The translations under genes were made by a program, and so were the position numbers. Below the pieces are notes generated by a model. The model worked only from the letters and a program-made list of their open reading frames with translations, was not told the origin of the DNA and made no database searches. Shown here piece by piece: positions 3,568 through 18,203 of a stretch of 64,000 nt of DNA. The DNA comes from a virus, in IMG/VR virus record IMGVR_UViG_3300017991_000096, positions 1 through 64,000 of that record, one strand, 5' to 3'. How positions within the stretch are numbered: position 1 is the stretch's first letter; every line of letters begins with the position of its first letter.

Positions 3568-3810
3568 ATGGCACGGGGACGCACCAGTACGACTGAGCCG
3601 TGGCTTGCGGGCACCGGCTACCAAGGTCGAACCATCCTTGCCGTCACCGGAGCGGGGCGCGGTCGCGCTACTCGTGACGTGGCGCTCAAGGGCGGTGTCA
3701 AGCGCGTCCCCGTCCCCATCCTTCAAGACCTCATCCTGGTGGAGAAGGGCTATGAGCCCAAATACAGCGGGCTGACACTCGCAGAAGTAGAGAAGCTGAG
3801 AACGGGTTGA
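3568..3810 (+). CDS. Small hypothetical protein
   Basis: 80 residues, starting at an ATG immediately after the previous stop. Contains a Gly/Arg-rich N-terminal half and a short hydrophobic stretch (V-P-I-L-Q-D-L-I-L-V-E-K-G-Y) near residues 49-62. That could be a small folded segment, as in phage proteins of the 'K-G-Y' connector type, but I cannot assign a family. Spacing and codon bias match the neighbours. Confidence 0.6.
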   Translation: MARGRTSTTEPWLAGTGYQGRTILAVTGAGRGRATRDVALKGGVKRVPVPILQDLILVEKGYEPKYSGLTLAEVEKLRTG

Positions 3811-3847
3811 AACTCCGTCAAGGCTCAAGCTATACAGGGAGATACGC

Positions 3848-4186
3848 ATGGTCGATACGATGCAACCTCGCGGAGCCGGCAAGAAGGTCGGACACCAGTA
3901 TCCTCCCCTCTACGTCGAGGAGGAGGAGAAGGATGGGGTAGAGATGCTCTACCCTGCCGCCAAGCGCGGCATGGGCGGTGTGACAGGAGCGAACACCGCC
4001 AAATGCCCCTACGGCAACACAGTCCTCGCCGCTGCCGTCAAGACGGACAGCGGTATGGGAGAACCCCGTGGCGAAGCTCCGGGGCTCAACCTTGCCTACG
4101 GTAACGTAGGCATGGGAGACGCCAACGACATGGTACGGGATCGAACCCCGCGCCCCACCCTCAACCGCAGAAAGCAGAAAGGCTAG
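3848..4186 (+). CDS. Small hypothetical protein
   Basis: 112 residues, preceded by GGGAGAT about 7 bases before ATG. The acidic V-E-E-E-E-K-D stretch near residue 25 contrasts with a basic C-terminal tail ending R-R-K-Q-K-G. One Cys, no membrane segment, no recognisable domain. It is part of the operon leading to the scaffold-like and capsid genes. Confidence 0.6.
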   Translation: MVDTMQPRGAGKKVGHQYPPLYVEEEEKDGVEMLYPAAKRGMGGVTGANTAKCPYGNTVLAAAVKTDSGMGEPRGEAPGLNLAYGNVGMGDANDMVRDRTPRPTLNRRKQKG

Positions 4187-4192
4187 AAAGCC

Positions 4193-4471
4193 ATGATGAA
4201 GTCCAGCACCGGACAGGGCGCAGCGGCCCGTCCCACCGTCGATGTCACCCGTGAGGGCAAGTACCCCAACGACAACACCTCTGGCGAGCGCAGCCAGGGT
4301 GAGGTCGCGGGGGCCGGCAGCATCTACGCCGCCGTGCTCAACGAGCGCCCGAACATCAGCAACCCGCGCAACCAGGGCCCGGTTCGAGCGCACAGCCGCG
4401 TCGGCAAGTCCACCATCCCTATCGCCATGGTGCGAACTCGTCAGGATGGCAAGGTCGCCGGCTCGATGTAG
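4193..4471 (+). CDS. Small hypothetical protein
   Basis: 92 residues; two ATG codons in a row give equally possible starts at 4193 and 4196. Gly, Ser, Asn and Arg dominate, suggesting a flexible protein. No Cys and no membrane segment. Last of the small head-proximal genes before the scaffold-like gene, which follows after 30 bases. Function unknown. Confidence 0.6.
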   Translation: MMKSSTGQGAAARPTVDVTREGKYPNDNTSGERSQGEVAGAGSIYAAVLNERPNISNPRNQGPVRAHSRVGKSTIPIAMVRTRQDGKVAGSM

Positions 4472-4501
4472 CCTACCGGGCCCCAACTAGGAGACGAACC
4501 A

Positions 4502-5788
4502 GTGAACCTCAACCGACTCAACTCGATGGGTGACCTCCTCGGCCTGTTCAACCAGGCCCCCGGTCAGCCCGTACCCGCCCCACAACAGGCCCCGCAACAG
4601 ACCACGTTCGACCCGAACGACCCCGCGGTCCAGGCCGCGATGCAGCTAGCCCGACAGCAAGAGCGGGACGCTCGCATCGCGGAGATCGAACGCCTCAAGT
4701 CAGAGAACTCGGGCCTCAAGACCCAGGTCACCGACGTGAACTCGCGTCTCGGTGCTCTGGAGAAGCAAGCTCAGCAAGCCGCCGAGCAAGCCAAGGCCGC
4801 CGAGATGGCGAAGATGAAACCCGACGAGAAGGTCCAGGCCCAACTACAGGCCCTACAGGACGAACTCAAGCGGTCCCGTGAGGAGCAACAGCGCACCGTC
4901 TCGGAGGCCAACAAGCGGGTGGAGGCGTGGCAGATCGAGAGCGAGAAGAACGCCATCATCGCCAAGCACAACGGTCAGGTCGATCCTCTCGCACTCGACA
5001 CCTCCAGCATTGAGGCGCTCCGCGCTTCGGAGGGTCGGGCTGTCCAGACCTACCAGGCAACCCGACAGCACTTCTTCTCGCAGTTCCAGCAGGAGATGCA
5101 GTTCCTCCAGCAGCAGGAGGCATCTCACAACCAGCAGCAGGTTGAGCAGCTTCCGAGCTACCCACCCGGCTACGGTATGCCTACTCCCAACAATGCCGGC
5201 TCACCCGCGCCGGCACAGGCCAACGGGGCACCTCCCCAGTTCACTCACCCCCAGATCGACGGCGGCCAGTCCTACGCTGCCGTGCGGCAGATGGCTCACG
5301 GTCGCGTCGTGCAACAGGCACCCGCGCCCAACGGCCAGCCGTTCTTCCAACCGCAGTACCCCCAACAGCAGCAGCCAGGGGCAGTCCAGCAACCGCAGGG
5401 CTCCCCCACCGGGCCGGTTCAGCCGGCTCACATGCAGCCACAGCAGCAACAGCCGCAGTGGCAGGGACAGCCGCAGCAGCCCCCACAAGGGCAGCAGCAG
5501 CCGTTGGTCGCGCCGCTACCGGATCCGAACCGGCAAGCCAGCGACCCCGCCCGCAACCTCACTCAGACTGAGGTCGCAGGTGCCATCGAGCACGCCAGAG
5601 CCATCGTGGAACAGCGACGAGGTTCTGGGGGGCTCTCGACTACCTCACGGGCTGCCACGGCAGCCCTACAGGCAGATCGTAAGGCTGGGGGTCATCAACC
5701 CAACGTCAACCTCCCCACGCCCACCACCGGGTTTGGGGGTAACCTGATGAATCACCCGATGGCGGCTCCCCGACCGGGGACCGTCTAA
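4502..5788 (+). CDS. Putative scaffold-like protein (coiled coil plus Gln/Pro-rich region)
   Basis: 428 residues from GTG 4502, with an AGGAG ribosome-binding site 7 bases upstream. Residues about 42-157 form a Glu/Lys/Gln/Ala heptad-like coiled coil. Residues about 205-350 are a Gln/Pro/Gly-rich disordered region with many Q-Q-P and P-Q-Q repeats. It lies immediately upstream of the major capsid gene. A long helical acidic/basic protein just before the capsid gene is the usual place and shape for a head scaffold, so that role is inferred. The long Gln/Pro tract is atypical, and no protease domain was seen. Confidence 0.55.
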   Translation: MNLNRLNSMGDLLGLFNQAPGQPVPAPQQAPQQTTFDPNDPAVQAAMQLARQQERDARIAEIERLKSENSGLKTQVTDVNSRLGALEKQAQQAAEQAKAAEMAKMKPDEKVQAQLQALQDELKRSREEQQRTVSEANKRVEAWQIESEKNAIIAKHNGQVDPLALDTSSIEALRASEGRAVQTYQATRQHFFSQFQQEMQFLQQQEASHNQQQVEQLPSYPPGYGMPTPNNAGSPAPAQANGAPPQFTHPQIDGGQSYAAVRQMAHGRVVQQAPAPNGQPFFQPQYPQQQQPGAVQQPQGSPTGPVQPAHMQPQQQQPQWQGQPQQPPQGQQQPLVAPLPDPNRQASDPARNLTQTEVAGAIEHARAIVEQRRGSGGLSTTSRAATAALQADRKAGGHQPNVNLPTPTTGFGGNLMNHPMAAPRPGTV

Positions 5789-11120: not shown

Positions 11121-13592
11121 ATGGTCGATTTCCTCAGCCCCGAAGTGATCGTTCGGGAGCAGCCGTCCAGCGCGGTTGCTCCTCCGAGCGTTCCATCGTC
11201 CATCCCCTACATGCTCGCCACTGCCGAGCGTGGCCCCATCAACCGCCCGCAACTGGTCATCGGGATCGAGGACTACGCTTCGATCTACGGGACCGACGAC
11301 GGCGGCGACGGCTTCCAGTCCGTCGTGGGGTTCTTCCTCAACGGCGGGCGTCGCATGTACGCCAACCGGGTGGCCCACTACCTCAACATCCTCGACCCCC
11401 TCACCCTGACTGCGGTTGCTGCCGCACTCACGGCGAACACGTCGGGGACGGCAGCCACGGCAGCGAGCACCACGGTCACCCCTGACGGGCCCTGGGACTT
11501 CTCGCTGGCGAACGGGGTCGTGCAGCCGCCGACCTTGATTGCCTCCATCGACGGCAACCCGGCCGACACCGCCACCATCCTCGGTACGCCGGCTGTGCTC
11601 ACGGCTCCTGGCGCCCCTGGTGGCGTCGGCACACCGGGCGACACGCTGACGTTCACCGTCAACGGCCAGACTCAGGTCTACACCGTGCCTGTCGCTCCGC
11701 CGACCACGGCGGCTGAGTGGGCCCTGGACATCGCTGCCCAGCTTCCCGGTGTCTTTGGCGCCGTGCTTGGCGGCGCTGTCGTGCTCACGACTGACCGCGA
11801 GGGCTCCAGCGCCCAGGTGGACTACGTCAGCGGCACGGGAACCGCGGGCGTGGACTCTGGCTTTGGTGCAGGGCCCGTGTTGGGCGTCAACGCTGGCCCC
11901 AACAACGTCGCGGACAAGAGCGTGGTCACCCCGACCGAACTCGCCGCGATCCTGCTCTCGGACTGGGCCTCTGGTGGTGGCGTCGCTACTGCCGTCGTGG
12001 GCGACACCGTGCAGGTGGACACGAACACCACCGGGTCTGCCGGCAGCATCGGCGCCGTCTCGGGCACCATCATCACGGCAGGCGTGGTGAGCTTCAACCC
12101 GTTGCCGCCCATCACGGGCGCCAACGCAGGGTCGCCCACCGTCCCGACGCTGGACTTCGCGGCGACCTCTGAGGGTGAGCACGGCAACTTCCTCGCCGTG
12201 ACCACTCGCCGCCGCGACCGGGTCATCTCTCTCATCACTGACGACATCACGGGCGGCGTGACCGAGATCCAGGTGGACGTGACCACGCAGTACCGCGTGG
12301 GGATGCAGATCTTGATCGAGGACCCCGTCACCCTGGGTGTCATGCGAGCCATCGTGCTCAAGGTCATCGGCAACCGTGTGCTGCTCGACACGACCTACAC
12401 CCCGAGCGCGAACATCCTCGTGGTGAACTCTCCCACGGTGACCAAGGAAACCTTCGACGTTACCTTCATCATCGACGGTGAGGCAGACGAGCCCTACGGG
12501 GACTTGTCCATGAGCCCCAGCGACGTGGGGTTCTACGTCGGAAACGTCATCGGCATCGACCCGACCCAGTTGGACCCGCGCCAACGGATCTACGTCGAGC
12601 AGGACTACGCGGTGGCGCTCGCCAACGACGTGGACCCGCGCCCGGTGGACATCACGGCGCAGCCCCTCACGGGCGGCATCAACTCCGACCCGCTCACGGA
12701 CAACGACTACGTGGGGTCCGACGTGACCAACACGGGCCTGTTCGCCCTCGACATCGTCAACGACTTCGACATGGGCACCGTGCCCGGCATCGAGACGGTG
12801 GCGGTCCACAACGCCATGCTGGACTACGCCTCGCGCCGCGAGGACCACGTCGCCATCATGGAGTCGCCGGAAAACCTCACCCCGACCCAGGTCAACACCT
12901 ACAAGAACGTCACTGCCAACCTGTTTGGCACCTACGGCATCATGTACGCGGGTCGCATCCAGGTTCTCCGCTCCTCGACGGGGCAGGCTGAGCCCTTCCC
13001 GGCTGCGATGTACGCCGCGGGTGCCTACGCCCGCACGGACCAGACGCGGAACATCAGCGAGGCACCGGCAGGGGTCGAGAAGGGGCAGCTTCGCGGCACC
13101 CTTGGTATGTCTGACGGCAACCTCTACGCGGACAAGGGGAACCGAGACACCATCTACCCCGAGGGCATCAACCCGATCTGGTCGAAGCCAGGCCAGGGCG
13201 TCGTGATGTGGGGTCAGAACACCCTCGACCCCGGATCCGACCGCGGCGCCATCGGTGTGCGCCGTGCGTTCATCTTCTTGCGCAAGGGTCTACAGGCGCT
13301 CTCCGAGTTCGTCCTGTTCGAGATCAACACCCCCTCCCTGCGAGGACGGTGGCGCAAGCTGGCGACCGGCTACCTCCGCGAGCAGCGGCGGGCCGGCATC
13401 ATCAAGGGTGCGTCGGACGATGAGGGGTTCTTCATCGTGTGCGACGAGAGCAACAACCCTCCGAGCGTTGTCAACGCGCGGAAGTTCTTTGCGCGCGTCG
13501 GCGTCAACGTGCTTCCTGGCATCGACTTCGCGGTCATCGACATCGAGCGCGACACTCGTGCTCTCGACGCAGAGTTGGCCTCCGCGGCCTAA
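11121..13592 (+). CDS. Tail sheath protein
   Basis: 823 residues. The N-terminus (L-S-P-E-V-I-V-R-E-Q ... P-Y-M-L-A-T-A-E-R-G-P) and the C-terminal 180 residues match contractile tail sheath proteins. Key C-terminal segments are R-R-A-F-I-F-L-R-K-G-L, E-I-N-T-P-S-L-R-G-R-W and the final F-A-V-I-D-I-E-R-D. Residues about 80-420 are a Gly/Ala/Thr/Val-rich insertion that probably forms exposed domains, and it makes this longer than typical 400-500-residue sheaths. It surrounds the tail tube and contracts on infection. Followed directly by the tube gene. Confidence 0.9.
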   Translation: MVDFLSPEVIVREQPSSAVAPPSVPSSIPYMLATAERGPINRPQLVIGIEDYASIYGTDDGGDGFQSVVGFFLNGGRRMYANRVAHYLNILDPLTLTAVAAALTANTSGTAATAASTTVTPDGPWDFSLANGVVQPPTLIASIDGNPADTATILGTPAVLTAPGAPGGVGTPGDTLTFTVNGQTQVYTVPVAPPTTAAEWALDIAAQLPGVFGAVLGGAVVLTTDREGSSAQVDYVSGTGTAGVDSGFGAGPVLGVNAGPNNVADKSVVTPTELAAILLSDWASGGGVATAVVGDTVQVDTNTTGSAGSIGAVSGTIITAGVVSFNPLPPITGANAGSPTVPTLDFAATSEGEHGNFLAVTTRRRDRVISLITDDITGGVTEIQVDVTTQYRVGMQILIEDPVTLGVMRAIVLKVIGNRVLLDTTYTPSANILVVNSPTVTKETFDVTFIIDGEADEPYGDLSMSPSDVGFYVGNVIGIDPTQLDPRQRIYVEQDYAVALANDVDPRPVDITAQPLTGGINSDPLTDNDYVGSDVTNTGLFALDIVNDFDMGTVPGIETVAVHNAMLDYASRREDHVAIMESPENLTPTQVNTYKNVTANLFGTYGIMYAGRIQVLRSSTGQAEPFPAAMYAAGAYARTDQTRNISEAPAGVEKGQLRGTLGMSDGNLYADKGNRDTIYPEGINPIWSKPGQGVVMWGQNTLDPGSDRGAIGVRRAFIFLRKGLQALSEFVLFEINTPSLRGRWRKLATGYLREQRRAGIIKGASDDEGFFIVCDESNNPPSVVNARKFFARVGVNVLPGIDFAVIDIERDTRALDAELASAA

Positions 13593-13610: not shown

Positions 13611-14150
13611 ATGCCTGGACGTGCAAGCACTCAAGACCCGCTCAAGGTCTTCAACTACGCTGTCGAGATCGACGGCTTCAAACGACTCGGCTTTGCCGAG
13701 GTCACCGGCCTCAAGGCCAACACCGAGGTGGTGGAGTACCGCGAAGGCGGCATGAACGAGTCCGTCCGCAAGAGCGCGGGCCTCTCGTCCTACGACAACA
13801 TCACCTTCAAGCGGGGTCAGATCATCGACCCCAACGAGGAGGGGGAGGACGACTTCTACGACTGGTATCTCCAAGTCCAGTCCGTCCGTACCCAGGGCTA
13901 CAACGACCCCGACTACCGCCGAAACATCACCGTCGTCCAGTTCAACCGGGACGGCACTGTGGCTCGACGGTGGAACATCGTGAACGCCTGGCCTTGCGGA
14001 TACGTGCCGTTCTCCGACCTGAACGGCACCGAGTCGTCCGACTCGATGGAGGAGATCGAGGTCTGCCATGAGGGCTTCGAGTTGGAAGGCGGACGCCCGC
14101 CACCTGGGATCGGCCAGTCCATCTCTCCGTCGCTCGGCATCGGCTCGTAG
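13611..14150 (+). CDS. Tail tube protein (T4 gp19-like)
   Basis: 179 residues, ATG preceded by AAGGAG. The sequence pattern F-N-Y-A-V-E-I-D-G-F ... F-A-E-V-T-G-L ... E-Y-R-E-G-G ... I-T-F-K-R-G is diagnostic for the gp19-like tube family of contractile tails. It would polymerise as hexameric rings inside the sheath. The gene follows the sheath after 18 bases, and a 188-base non-coding region with RNA secondary structure follows it. Confidence 0.9.
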   Translation: MPGRASTQDPLKVFNYAVEIDGFKRLGFAEVTGLKANTEVVEYREGGMNESVRKSAGLSSYDNITFKRGQIIDPNEEGEDDFYDWYLQVQSVRTQGYNDPDYRRNITVVQFNRDGTVARRWNIVNAWPCGYVPFSDLNGTESSDSMEEIEVCHEGFELEGGRPPPGIGQSISPSLGIGS

Positions 14151-14338: not shown

Positions 14339-15142
14339 ATGTCTCATCAAGCCACCACCACCACCGAGCTTCCCTGCGGGTACATGACCCCTGACGGGAG
14401 GCTCTTGAAGTTTGCCACCCTGCGCGAGATGGAGACGCGCGAGGAGAAGATCCTCGGGTCCTCCAACCCAGACATCATGCAGGTCGTCGCCAACTGCCTC
14501 GTCGGCGTTGGGACGGAGGACGAACCCTCGCTCATCAGTGACCGGGCGACCCTCAAGGACGAGGTCTGCCCCGAACTGCTCAAGGGCGACTACGACTGGT
14601 TGCTCGTCCAGCTTCGGATCCTCTCGCTGGGGCCCGAGTACGACTACACCGTTCTCTGCCCGAACACCCAGTGTAAGAAGGAGAGCAAGCATACCTACGA
14701 TCTCGACAACATCGAGGTCAAGGAGATGCCAGACCCGGAGGAGCGGATGATGACTTGGGAGGCGCGTTCGGGCTCGACGCTGGAGTTCCGCCACCTTCGG
14801 GGCGTGGACACCGAGATGCTGACGGAGATCAGCCAGTCGAACCAGGACGTGCTCGGTAAGCTGCTCGCGCTCCATCTCGTCAGCATCGACGGCAAGGGCG
14901 TCTCCGAGTTGGCGAAGCACCGCAAGGTCAAGACGGGAGCCCAGCATCTCAAGGCCGCGGTCAAGCTGCTCGACAAGGAGGTGCCATCCTACGGCGAGCG
15001 GACCAAGATTCGGGCCATGCTTCTCAAGGCCCGCGGTATGCCCGACGTGGATGTGATCTCAACCTGCCCCCACTGCGGGAGCGAGTGGACGCATAGGATG
15101 CCCATTGATCCGGGTTTTCTCATGCCCTCGGCGGCGGTCTAA
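14339..15142 (+). CDS. Tail-assembly chaperone / gp26-family baseplate protein (short form)
   Basis: 267 residues, ATG preceded by TGGAG. The N-terminal L-P-C-G-Y-M-T-P-D-G-R-L-L-K and M-E-T-R-E-E-K-I-L motifs, the C-P-N-T-Q-C zinc-like pair in mid-protein and C-P-H-C near the end resemble T4 gp26-type proteins (Pfam T4_baseplate). In contractile phages these are encoded between tube and tape measure. Eight codons before its stop lies a canonical slippery heptamer in phase. A fraction of ribosomes would then produce a longer 340-residue fusion with the next ORF, as in other tail-assembly chaperones. Confidence 0.7.
   Translation: MSHQATTTTELPCGYMTPDGRLLKFATLREMETREEKILGSSNPDIMQVVANCLVGVGTEDEPSLISDRATLKDEVCPELLKGDYDWLLVQLRILSLGPEYDYTVLCPNTQCKKESKHTYDLDNIEVKEMPDPEERMMTWEARSGSTLEFRHLRGVDTEMLTEISQSNQDVLGKLLALHLVSIDGKGVSELAKHRKVKTGAQHLKAAVKLLDKEVPSYGERTKIRAMLLKARGMPDVDVISTCPHCGSEWTHRMPIDPGFLMPSAAV
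15112..15118 (+). promoter_or_regulatory. -1 programmed ribosomal frameshift site (slippery GGGTTTT)
   Basis: GGGTTTT is read in the zero frame as G-GGT-TTT, exactly the X-XXY-YYZ phase. The -1 frame is open from 15109 to 15360, while the zero frame stops at 15140-15142. The -1 frame ORF has no ribosome-binding site before its only plausible start (GTG 15175). The location directly before the tape measure gene is the classic place for this event. No obvious strong downstream stem was found by eye. Confidence 0.7.
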
Positions 15143-15360
15143 GGAACTCGTTTTGGTACCCCATCGCGCACTCCGTGACCGTGCCAGCCTGGCGGAACTT
15201 GGAACTGATGTGGCACGAGTTTCATCAAGCCCTACTCGCGGAGCGCTGGCACTGGGGACCAGACGCCATCGAGGGTATGCCCATCTCTGTTCGCAACCGG
15301 CTGGTGGACTCGGTCGTGGAGATCGTCTCTGCTGAGAAGCGCAAACTAACGCAGGACTAA
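15118..15360 (+). CDS. -1 frame extension of the tail-assembly chaperone
   Basis: 81 codons including stop, read after a -1 slip at 15112-15118 and re-reading base 15118. The fusion would be 260 + 80 = 340 residues. The extension has a Trp/Tyr/His-rich start (N-S-F-W-Y-P-I-A-H-S-V-T-V-P-A-W) and a helical charged tail, which look like one continuous domain beginning upstream of GTG 15175. Independent initiation at 15175 would give 61 residues and lacks a Shine-Dalgarno. The tape measure ATG follows after 3 bases. Confidence 0.65.
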   Translation, partial: SHALGGGLRNSFWYPIAHSVTVPAWRNLELMWHEFHQALLAERWHWGPDAIEGMPISVRNRLVDSVVEIVSAEKRKLTQD

Positions 15361-15363
15361 ACC

Positions 15364-17613
15364 ATGGACGAGACGGCCGAGTTCGGATTCATCTTCAACG
15401 TCAAGGGCAACGCCGAAAAGGCGTTCAAGCGGATGTCGGGCTACCTCAAGTCCATCACCGCAGAGTCCAGGGCGTCGGCGCGCTCCTATCGTGCGCCCCG
15501 AGACGAGTTCGGCCGTTTCGTCAGCCAGGGAACCAAGGGCGCTGTCGGTTTCGCGGGCAGCATCGGGCAGGTGTCCTCCGCCCTCTCCGACGCCACAGGT
15601 CAGATCACGGCGCTCACGAGTGCCGCCTCCAACTTCTTCGGCGGGTTCGTGCGGCAGGGCGTCCAGACAGCCGCAGCCATCGAGGAGAGCAACGCCCGAC
15701 TCGCGTTCGGTCTATCCAAGATGGGTATGCCGTTTGACGAGATCAACGACCGGATCGATGAGGTGTCCCTCAAGACCGTGCTTACTCGCGCGGACTTGCA
15801 GGACATGGTGTCCGAGCTAGCCATTCAGAGGATCAACGCTTTTGATACTGCCCTCGACAGCCTCCAGTACACGGCTACCGATGGTAGTAAGAAAACCATC
15901 TCTGCCGTGGAGTCCATCGCTGACGCCGTGGCGTTCTCAGGTAAGAACGTCAACCGCGTCATGTTCTCCATCAAGGAGACGGTGTCTGAGGGCAAGATCC
16001 GCCCTGGCCGCTTCCTGTCCGACGACTTGAACCTCGCCCGTGACGAGGTGAAGAAGTGGAACAAGGAACTCGACAAGGCCAAGAGCAACCAGGAGCGGTT
16101 CAACACCCTCATGGGCCTGATCACCGATCGCGTCGGCGGCACCACGGGCGCCCTCGGTGACACCCTCAACTTTACCCTCCAGCAGATTGACGACTGGGTG
16201 GACAAGATCAGCAGCGAGGCGTTCAAGGGCGTGCTGCCGGTCATCCGCGACCTTGTCCGCGAGATCGGGGAATGGTTCCTGACCGTTACCAAGGAAGGCT
16301 ACATGGACAAGGTGCGCGAGGCGTTTACCGACCTTGCGAAGCAAGCCGCAGCGGTCGCGCGCTTCATGTTCAACGTCGCCACTGCCGTTTTCGAGTTCGT
16401 GCGGATGAACCCGTGGGTCATCAAGCTCGTCTCCTACCTCATCGCGGCAGGCGTCGCGCTGGGGACCATCGTCGGCGCCATCGCCAGTGTTGCCGCTGTG
16501 GTCCTCGCGTTCCAGGCCCTCTGGGCTGCGCTGCCCGCCGTCATCGCTGCCGTCCAGGCTGCCGTGGTCGCGCTGTTCACCACCGTCCTCCCGTACACGC
16601 TGCTGCTCGGTCTGGTCGTCGGCGGGCTCGTCGTCGGCTTCATGGCGCTTGCCAAGGTCATGCTCGGCGGCAAGGACTGGGCCGACACATGGGAGCGCGT
16701 CAAGCTGGTCCTCTCCGCGATCTGGGAGGGCATCAAGGGTATGACGGGTGACTCCGCCACGCTCTCGAAAGAGACAGCCATGGCGCTACAGAAAGCCGGG
16801 TTGCTCGATTTCGTGTGGAACTTCCTGCGCGTCCTCAACCGGGTCAAGAAGATGGCGATCACCGTCTACCAGACCTTCATGGGGTATTGGCCGGCGATTC
16901 AGGAGGCGGGCGTGCGCATCTGGGGGTCCATCTCTCGCGCCGTCGAGTCCTTCGCCCGCATCTTCGGCATCAACACGAAGGGGATGCAGAAGGGTGCTGA
17001 CACGACCATGGACTCGTGGGTCGAGACGGGCATCGCCATTGGCGAGGTCTTCGCCCACATCATCCTGTTCATCGTCATGCTCGTGGAGTGGATCGCCAAG
17101 GCTATCGAAGGCATGGCGAACCTGTACGAAAAGGCGACGCAGGTGGGCGAGGGCATCGCAGACTGGGCGGCCGACTGGACAGGTGTAGGCGTACAGGAGG
17201 AGGAGAGAACGTCAGTTCGCGGCGCACCGGGCTTTATGGGCCAAGGTGCTATGGCTGCGGGAGCCCCTGCCCGTGGGGCTCCAGGCTTCCTCGGACAAGG
17301 TGCCGCTGCCAGCATCGTCACGCCGCGCGAAGCTCTCCAGCAGAAAAACCAGAAAGAGGCCGCCGACGCCCTGGCGAGTATGAGCGAACTCCAGCGCAGG
17401 CGCCTGGTCGAGCTACAGGACGAGAAGCGTGCAGCACTCGCAGGTGGCGACCGCAAGAGCGCGGCCGTCATCGACGACAAGGTAATGAAGGAGTTTGGAA
17501 AGACCATCGCCAACGCCGTCGCCAAGGCCCCGCTCAAGGTCAACATCGACGGGAAGAACGTGACTGACCTGATCGCAGAGCAGTCCCAGCAGAACAGAGA
17601 GGCAGGTGCCTGA
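15364..17613 (+). CDS. Tail tape measure protein
   Basis: 749 residues, located right after the frameshifted chaperone. The N-terminal 340 residues are helical and charged. Residues about 345-435 form a long hydrophobic block of several potential membrane helices, and another lies near 560-585; both are typical of tape measure proteins. A Gly/Ala/Pro linker near 617-650 contains a duplicated R-G-A-P-G-F-[ML]-G-Q-G-A. By the usual length rule (about 0.15 nm per residue), the tail would be near 110 nm. The protein sets tail length and is ejected with DNA. Confidence 0.8.
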   Translation: MDETAEFGFIFNVKGNAEKAFKRMSGYLKSITAESRASARSYRAPRDEFGRFVSQGTKGAVGFAGSIGQVSSALSDATGQITALTSAASNFFGGFVRQGVQTAAAIEESNARLAFGLSKMGMPFDEINDRIDEVSLKTVLTRADLQDMVSELAIQRINAFDTALDSLQYTATDGSKKTISAVESIADAVAFSGKNVNRVMFSIKETVSEGKIRPGRFLSDDLNLARDEVKKWNKELDKAKSNQERFNTLMGLITDRVGGTTGALGDTLNFTLQQIDDWVDKISSEAFKGVLPVIRDLVREIGEWFLTVTKEGYMDKVREAFTDLAKQAAAVARFMFNVATAVFEFVRMNPWVIKLVSYLIAAGVALGTIVGAIASVAAVVLAFQALWAALPAVIAAVQAAVVALFTTVLPYTLLLGLVVGGLVVGFMALAKVMLGGKDWADTWERVKLVLSAIWEGIKGMTGDSATLSKETAMALQKAGLLDFVWNFLRVLNRVKKMAITVYQTFMGYWPAIQEAGVRIWGSISRAVESFARIFGINTKGMQKGADTTMDSWVETGIAIGEVFAHIILFIVMLVEWIAKAIEGMANLYEKATQVGEGIADWAADWTGVGVQEEERTSVRGAPGFMGQGAMAAGAPARGAPGFLGQGAAASIVTPREALQQKNQKEAADALASMSELQRRRLVELQDEKRAALAGGDRKSAAVIDDKVMKEFGKTIANAVAKAPLKVNIDGKNVTDLIAEQSQQNREAGA

Positions 17614-18203
17614 TGGGATACAACCCCTCACGATTCACGAAGGGCCGGTTCGTCCAGGTCAGCACGGGCATCATCGTCCCCTTCATGTTCAACCCCACCA
17701 CCGTCGCGCGCGACCACGGATGGAGTTGGTCTGAGCAGGCTATCCCTGGCCGATCTCACCCGTTCTACCAGGGTGGCACTGGCATGGCCGAGAGCATCAG
17801 TTTCACCCTGTTCCTCGACGGCGACCGCGGGCGCTCCGACCGGCGGCGCTCGCTGGCTGAGGTCGGCTTTCAGGACGTGCCCATCGACCTGTCCCCGGAG
17901 ATCAACCAGCTACGCCAGTTGAAGCTGCCCCACGATGTCGAGTTCGATGGGGCCTATGGCGTGCCCGACCGCTTGCTCCTCAACCTCGGGACTTGGTTCT
18001 CTGGGCAGGTGCAACTGGACAGCGTCAACGACCGCGTCACCGAGTGGACCCCCAAGCTGGAGCCGCTGCGCGCTGAGGTGGACATCGAGGCGCATGTGAT
18101 CGTTGAATCCAACGAAACCGACTGGTTGTTCTTCTCCTCGGAGCCGAGCAACGCCCTGACGGAGCGGCCAGAGGTGCTGCCCAGACCGGAGAGTGACTCG
18201 TGA
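17613..18203 (+). CDS. Baseplate hub / CIS-tube-like protein
   Basis: 196 residues; TGATG overlap with the tape measure stop. The N-terminal V-P-F-M-F-N-P-T-T-V ... W-S-W-S-E-Q-A-I-P-G-R ... Y-Q-G-G-T-G ... S-F-T-L-F-L-D-G pattern matches the contractile injection system tube/hub N-terminal family. It would form part of the tube initiator below the tail tube. No LysM tail was seen in this short version; the following small gene may supply a similar role. Confidence 0.6.
   Translation: MGYNPSRFTKGRFVQVSTGIIVPFMFNPTTVARDHGWSWSEQAIPGRSHPFYQGGTGMAESISFTLFLDGDRGRSDRRRSLAEVGFQDVPIDLSPEINQLRQLKLPHDVEFDGAYGVPDRLLLNLGTWFSGQVQLDSVNDRVTEWTPKLEPLRAEVDIEAHVIVESNETDWLFFSSEPSNALTERPEVLPRPESDS

Follow-up and report, generated by a model that had tools for sequence, protein, structure and literature searches.

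Overlapping reading frames that yield a short and a long tail assembly chaperone (TAC) are known from gpG and gpGT of phage lambda, whose TAC role has been described (PMC5009743) and whose open reading frames (ORFs) are flanked by the genes for the major tail protein and the tape measure, with a -1 heptamer (G_GGA_AAG) a few codons before the stop. Vladimirov, Gautam and Davidson (2022, Virology 566:9-15), as cited in PMC10885494 and PMC12846349, identified the TAC genes in T4-like phages. PMC12846349 adds that TAC-N genes of this group are known to carry poly-T -1 signals, and it reports a conserved -1 site in the TAC of Vandenendeviridae. Here we looked at a window of 64,000 nucleotides (positions 1 to 64,000 of IMG/VR record IMGVR_UViG_3300017991_000096, which comprises 79,245 bases and comes from an uncultured tailed virus) in which a gp26-type ORF overlaps a second frame upstream of the presumed tape measure gene. 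The overlapping frames are very probably the TAC pair of a contractile-tailed virus, in which TAC-N has 267 residues and a -1 frameshift gives a longer form, TAC-NC, of 340.

The gp26-type ORF (14339-15142; all features described here are on the plus strand) starts with ATG, encodes 267 residues with two CxxC-like zinc motifs and belongs to Pfam family T4_baseplate (PF12322) with a score of 35.2 bits against a curated cut-off of 24.5; it also matches phrog_150 (E 5.5e-12). It is situated between a tail tube gene of the T4 gp19 family (13611-14150; PF06841, E 1.9e-33) and the presumed tape measure gene, which begins with an ATG at 15364. The 3' end of the ORF reads CCG GGT TTT CTC ATG CCC TCG GCG GCG GTC TAA, and as a first-pass annotation of this stretch had pointed out the heptamer GGGTTTT (15112-15118) stands in exact X_XXY_YYZ phase, with seven sense codons between it and the zero-frame stop, which is the eighth codon. 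The -1 frame has no stop between 15109 and 15357 and ends at a TAA (15358-15360), and both the open frame and the 340-residue length of the predicted product (14339-15360, 260 + 80 residues) bear out that annotation. Beyond the slip site the -1 frame (15118-15360) would add a T-like extension of 80 residues, consisting of a flexible linker followed by a helical hairpin with the motif ...W..D.I..MPI..R.... An AGGA at 15095-15098, 13 nt 5' of the heptamer, is a candidate Shine-Dalgarno-like stimulator.

Nine in-phase X_XXY_YYZ heptamers in which Y is A or T occur within the 46 confidently called genes of the window (15,402 codons), and the one at 15112-15118 is alone in lying within 20 codons of a stop. 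By chance about 0.5 such events near a stop are expected over all 46 genes (about 1% for the gp26-type gene specifically), hence the heptamer alone is modest evidence, and the weight falls on where it sits, on the frame being open and on homologous genes.

In layout the locus is comparable with lambda gpG/gpGT, from which it differs in that its protein is gp26-type with zinc motifs and its heptamer is G_GGT_TTT. It is likewise comparable in layout with the TAC of Vandenendeviridae/Andersonviridae, as described for phage Adele in PMC12846349, where a contractile phage has a poly-T slip motif (GTTTTT) at the 3' end of TAC-N and a -1 frame open over 200 bp. The analysis shows the anatomy and phase of the window locus, its homology, a shifted frame and a slip site here that relatives have kept, and protein-level selection on the shifted frame of those relatives; that slippage occurs in the window virus, how often it does so and that its products act as chaperones are inferences. 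Most ribosomes would stop at 15142 and release TAC-N, while a minority would slip back one base on G_GGT_TTT, with the tRNAs on GGT and TTT re-pairing with GGG and TTT, and would go on to make TAC-NC, of which 80 residues form a helical T-like extension. On the model of lambda gpG/gpGT many copies of TAC-N and few of TAC-NC would coat the tape measure protein, TAC-NC would recruit tube protein, and both forms would depart before maturation.

T4 has proteins of the same family. Its gp26 and gp51 are paralogues, both in phrog_150, with gp51 carrying an extra C-terminal part (L016, T4 3803-5229). T4 gp51 aligns with the profile of the fused form over residues 11-245 including the T-like part (E 5e-7), so that the two correspond end to end, whereas gp26 aligns with the N part only, its match ending at the slip site (E 8e-9). 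The T4 proteins are encoded by two separate genes on opposite strands, where the window has one gene and a shift, and T4 therefore appears to keep two genes for what these viruses make by shifting. A gp26-type protein as partner in a TAC frameshift, which the first-pass annotation had regarded as the new point, is thus not new in principle, because T4 gp26 and gp51 are in the same family and TAC genes of T4-like phages have been in print since 2022.

The names given to PF12322 and phrog_150, baseplate or baseplate hub, would fit a different role, in which the site does slip and the product is, for example, a baseplate hub component with no part in tail assembly. We think this quite unlikely. 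T4 gp51 is a catalytic assembly factor and not part of the virion, and the window gene has its position before the tape measure gene. The two halves of the product were modelled apart, and the AlphaFold model of the window gp26 (predicted local distance difference test score 93.4) has a possibly chaperone-like fold, its best VIA-align match being YqbN (3klu; Z 6.0, root mean square deviation (rmsd) 4.2, 89 aligned) and its second 2ob9, the tail assembly chaperone of HK97 (Z 5.3, rmsd 3.2, 78 aligned), both within residues 1-99, a result that is modest yet specific. A sequence search against the PDB gave no relative, and its zinc-finger and NTF2 rows were taken as chance. In PA5oct the neighbouring structural proteins carry a mass spectrometry note and the gp26-type protein is without one, which argues weakly in the same direction.

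Single-sequence scans of viral contigs with the window gp26 and with its extension found no relative, and the six-member and four-member alignments were too divergent to serve as scan queries. Relatives were gathered instead as six distant gp26-type records by tblastn and further ones from other seeds, to which IMG/VR scans added 115 loci together with the nearer L008 and L137. Four loci run off their contig and three more are cut within the extension, L111 and L112 are without the usual motif, and some loci are near duplicates (SP-15 is present twice, L100/L101 and others). All loci with enough sequence and a recognisable end have an out-of-frame ORF that overlaps gp26 near its stop and continues, usually for 50-100 codons. 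Position and open frame are kept in more than 100 loci and the type of site depends on lineage. Over 100 other phage sequences have a corresponding slip site there, so that the trick is an old one and has been conserved, even though the virus is new.

The closest locatable relatives, L008 and L137 (tube identity 54% and 38% respectively, to the window or pair query), have T_TTT_TTC five codons 5' of the stop and an open -1 frame, and they share FFLPIGxxIxLESDL across the slip site and ahead of any post-shift start codon. The same heptamer with an open -1 frame is present in SCTP-2, PA5oct and Atu_ph07 (4, 3 and 1 codons before the stop), RAS14 has T_TTT_TTT 11 codons before the stop with its -1 frame open, and LR756511 has T_TTT_TTC 21 codons before the stop, overlapping a GGGTTTT. 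In L130 and L131 T_TTT_TTC lies 6 codons before the stop and in L129 T_TTT_TTT lies 3 codons before it. The comparison of -1 frames that the first-pass annotation had called for thus gave an open frame in L008, L137, SCTP-2, Atu_ph07, PA5oct, RAS14, LR756511, L130 and L131, and the slip sites of the -1 relatives sit at the same Phe-Phe position as in the window. In the giant phages SCTP-2, Atu_ph07, PA5oct and RAS14 the gp26-type gene is away from an annotated tape measure gene and the -1 site and extension are kept; in the first three, genes on the opposite strand flank it.

A lost base in sequencing or assembly could have split a single 340-residue gene, as a one-base difference would join the frames. 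This is extremely unlikely and we rejected it, because the same split is found at the same place, in -1 or +1 phase and with a slip motif each time, in independent relatives from many samples and in four cultured giant phages.

In about 110 further loci this extension is found in the +1 frame and the equivalent spot reads YUU_NNN; the frame difference by itself does not separate +1 from -2. The sites are TTT_TGG (59), CTT_TGG (17), TTT_CGN (about 19), TTT or TTC_AAT (6) and a few others including some with TAC as second codon, and all are at a Phe-Phe or Leu-Phe pair 3' of the last zinc motif. Sites of the CTT_TGG kind resemble the +1 site of RF2. The Streptomyces phages GiJojo and BRock have TTT_CGC, SP-15 has UUU_CAC and immuto has CUU_UGG, and UUU_CGU is given as the core of the influenza A PA-X +1 site in PMC3498833. 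SP-15, LIS04, BRock, GiJojo, immuto and Mel-JY01 share with the window the order tube, gp26, short out-of-frame ORF and tape measure, the gene family and the codon pair at which the extension leaves the zero frame; they differ from it in that the extension is in +1 (formally +1 or -2) and the site is YUU_NNN, not X_XXY_YYZ. The tape measure gene is annotated as such at the equivalent position in LIS04 and immuto. Across a large phage group (L017-L096) the last ~30 nt of the gp26-type ORF hold the near-invariant DNA stretch TTT(T/C)TTTGGCCTGAC, whose nucleotides are apparently constrained by its use in both frames and in the slip site.

Conservation of the shifted frame also bears on whether the downstream ORF is a separate gene, re-initiated at GTG 15175 or ATG 15208 after the gp26 stop, with the heptamer a coincidence. 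In the largest +1 family 62 of the 76 loci have no ATG, GTG or TTG in the first 31 post-shift codons, and PA5oct and L115/L117 are devoid of start codons from 15 codons upstream of the shift through to the ORF's end. In the stretch that separates the zero-frame stop from the conserved YxMP motif, the two length classes of the +1 family show 0.24/0.20/0.53 and 0.25/0.18/0.50 changes per codon at positions 1/2/3. Protein-level selection therefore acts in the shifted frame of the relatives, and a frame lacking start codons yet changing mostly at third positions is what frameshift translation predicts, unlike a separate gene. Start codons do occur inside the overlap in a fraction of loci, so separate starts are possible locus by locus.

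In the window itself the first-pass annotation had taken GTG 15175 (15175-15177) as the only stand-alone start, without a Shine-Dalgarno. It has a weak one (-2.8 kcal/mol; just 6 of the 46 window genes have weaker), and a second possible start, ATG 15208 (15208-15210), had been missed; a GGA precedes it by ~6 nt (-4.8 kcal/mol, with weaker values in about a quarter of window genes) and the conserved T motif is 3' of it. Initiation there would give a 50-residue T-only protein. A separate gene has further precedent in T4, which produces gp26 and gp51 from distinct genes, and in some DUF6760 ORFs of cellular contractile systems that have an ATG or GTG at the overlap. Against this, the slip site recurs at the equivalent position across the family, many relatives have no start codon before the conserved part although the frame is open and under selection, and a T-only protein is a product of neither T4 nor lambda, gp51 having both halves. 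We consider a separate gene unlikely and a TAC pair joined by a programmed -1 shift the better account.

The identity of the extension was assessed with T profiles built without the window sequence and scanned against 1153 six-frame window ORFs. With a profile combining phage and extracellular contractile injection system (eCIS) extensions the window extension (15109-15357) ranked first (E 0.0057, the next 0.7), and it was also first with phage extensions alone (E 0.39) and with eCIS extensions alone (E 0.31). Two smaller profiles were weaker: one of just the largest +1 group placed it second, and one of just the seven -1 sequences did not list it. The motif in common consists of a helix, W, D, I, MPI and R, and the model of the extension is a linker and a helical hairpin with helices at residues 24-44 and 56-79, which gave no structural matches.

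Several observations weigh against a programmed -1 TAC pair in the window. Downstream RNA structure is not significant (fold z -1.25 for 15119-15200 and -0.78 for 15085-15230), which includes a possible G+C-rich stem at 15130-15185 3' of the slip site. The exact G_GGT_TTT is unmatched in close relatives among the collections searched, with the overlap in LR756511 as exception, so conservation is at the level of the family and involves a different heptamer. An identical heptamer in relatives, as had been expected, is to be rejected: the site type changes and the position stays. Relatives without the heptamer, which the first-pass annotation had named as evidence against a fusion, exist in a literal sense only, as T_TTT_TTC or a +1-type site replaces G_GGT_TTT at the same codon pair. 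Z-scores of 5-6 in the structural comparison are modest, and with the gp26 model as query plain Foldseek returned nothing at E <= 0.001. ATG 15208 is usable and could initiate a T-only protein. Finally, the suggestion that codons upstream of GTG 15175 look coding holds in part: those from the slip site to the GTG fit the codon use of this virus better than 98.5% of its stop-free wrong-frame stretches (1.5% of wrong-frame windows equal them) and fall below ~96% of true ones (4.3% of real windows are worse), in part because the first codons also encode the end of gp26. The programmed fusion that the annotation had proposed, between a gp26-type chaperone and the short ORF preceding the tape measure gene, is nevertheless the reading with the strongest comparative support, from the architecture, slip site and shifted frame of distant relatives, the third-position bias and the full-length gp51 match.

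The only bacterial relative of the tube that was found (L138; JAUTWX010000068.1) is within a cellular contractile injection cluster. There, at 4421-4989, a small zinc-motif protein, which aligns with gp26 (hhalign E 4.3e-6), precedes a DUF6760 (PF20546) frame in -1, and its gene has an in-phase G_GGG_GGA one codon ahead of the stop. DUF6760 is in -1 to a 'phage tail assembly protein' in 12 of 12 pairs (L138, L140-L150) drawn from Acidobacteriota, Actinomycetota, Cyanobacteriota, Pseudomonadota, Bacillota and Haloferax, and in 11 of them G_GGG_GAN or G_GGG_GGA is in phase 1-5 codons before the stop, Haloferax being different. A start codon ahead of the conserved part is often absent, and in Brasilonema the DUF6760 frame has none through the conserved part. 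These pairs resemble the window in having a short zinc-motif protein and then a small W/R helix protein in -1; their N part is much shorter (~121 residues) and their site is G-rich. The window extension has no Pfam match to PF20546 up to E 5 and shows a weak profile resemblance to DUF6760 (hhalign 8.9e-5). No mention of DUF6760 was found among the papers searched.

On balance we favour a single recoding spot of ancient origin at the Phe-Phe pair that follows the last zinc motif. Different lineages would read it in opposite directions, -1 on U_UUU_UUY or G_GGU_UUU and +1 on UUU or CUU plus a slow codon; gene duplication would have replaced it in T4, and it would have a counterpart in cellular contractile injection systems, where a -1 shift on G_GGG_GAN joins the gp26-like 'phage tail assembly protein' to DUF6760. 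What is newer is that the direction of the shift changes at one conserved codon pair, together with a likely equivalent in cellular systems. A codon pair at which some lineages shift -1 and others +1 offers a natural comparison of how recoding sites change under a constant product. 'Baseplate hub' annotations in hundreds of phage genomes turn into a testable claim, namely that the genes encode tail assembly chaperones whose C-terminal half is hidden, being missed by gene callers or cut at a false start. If the G_GGG_GAN/DUF6760 pairs do shift, recoding would likewise be needed for cellular contractile injection systems to assemble, and codon-altered expression constructs could lose the long form.

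Among the neighbouring genes, a tail sheath protein (11121-13592; PF04984, E 1.8e-11) is encoded upstream of the tube. The presumed tape measure protein (15364-17613, 749 residues) has no Pfam match above cut-off and is identified by position and by annotation in relatives; its sub-threshold match to DUF5682 (25.8 vs 26 bits) is probably a composition effect. The gene 3' of it (17613-18203) matches CIS_tube (PF19266, E 5e-7), a contractile injection system tube family.
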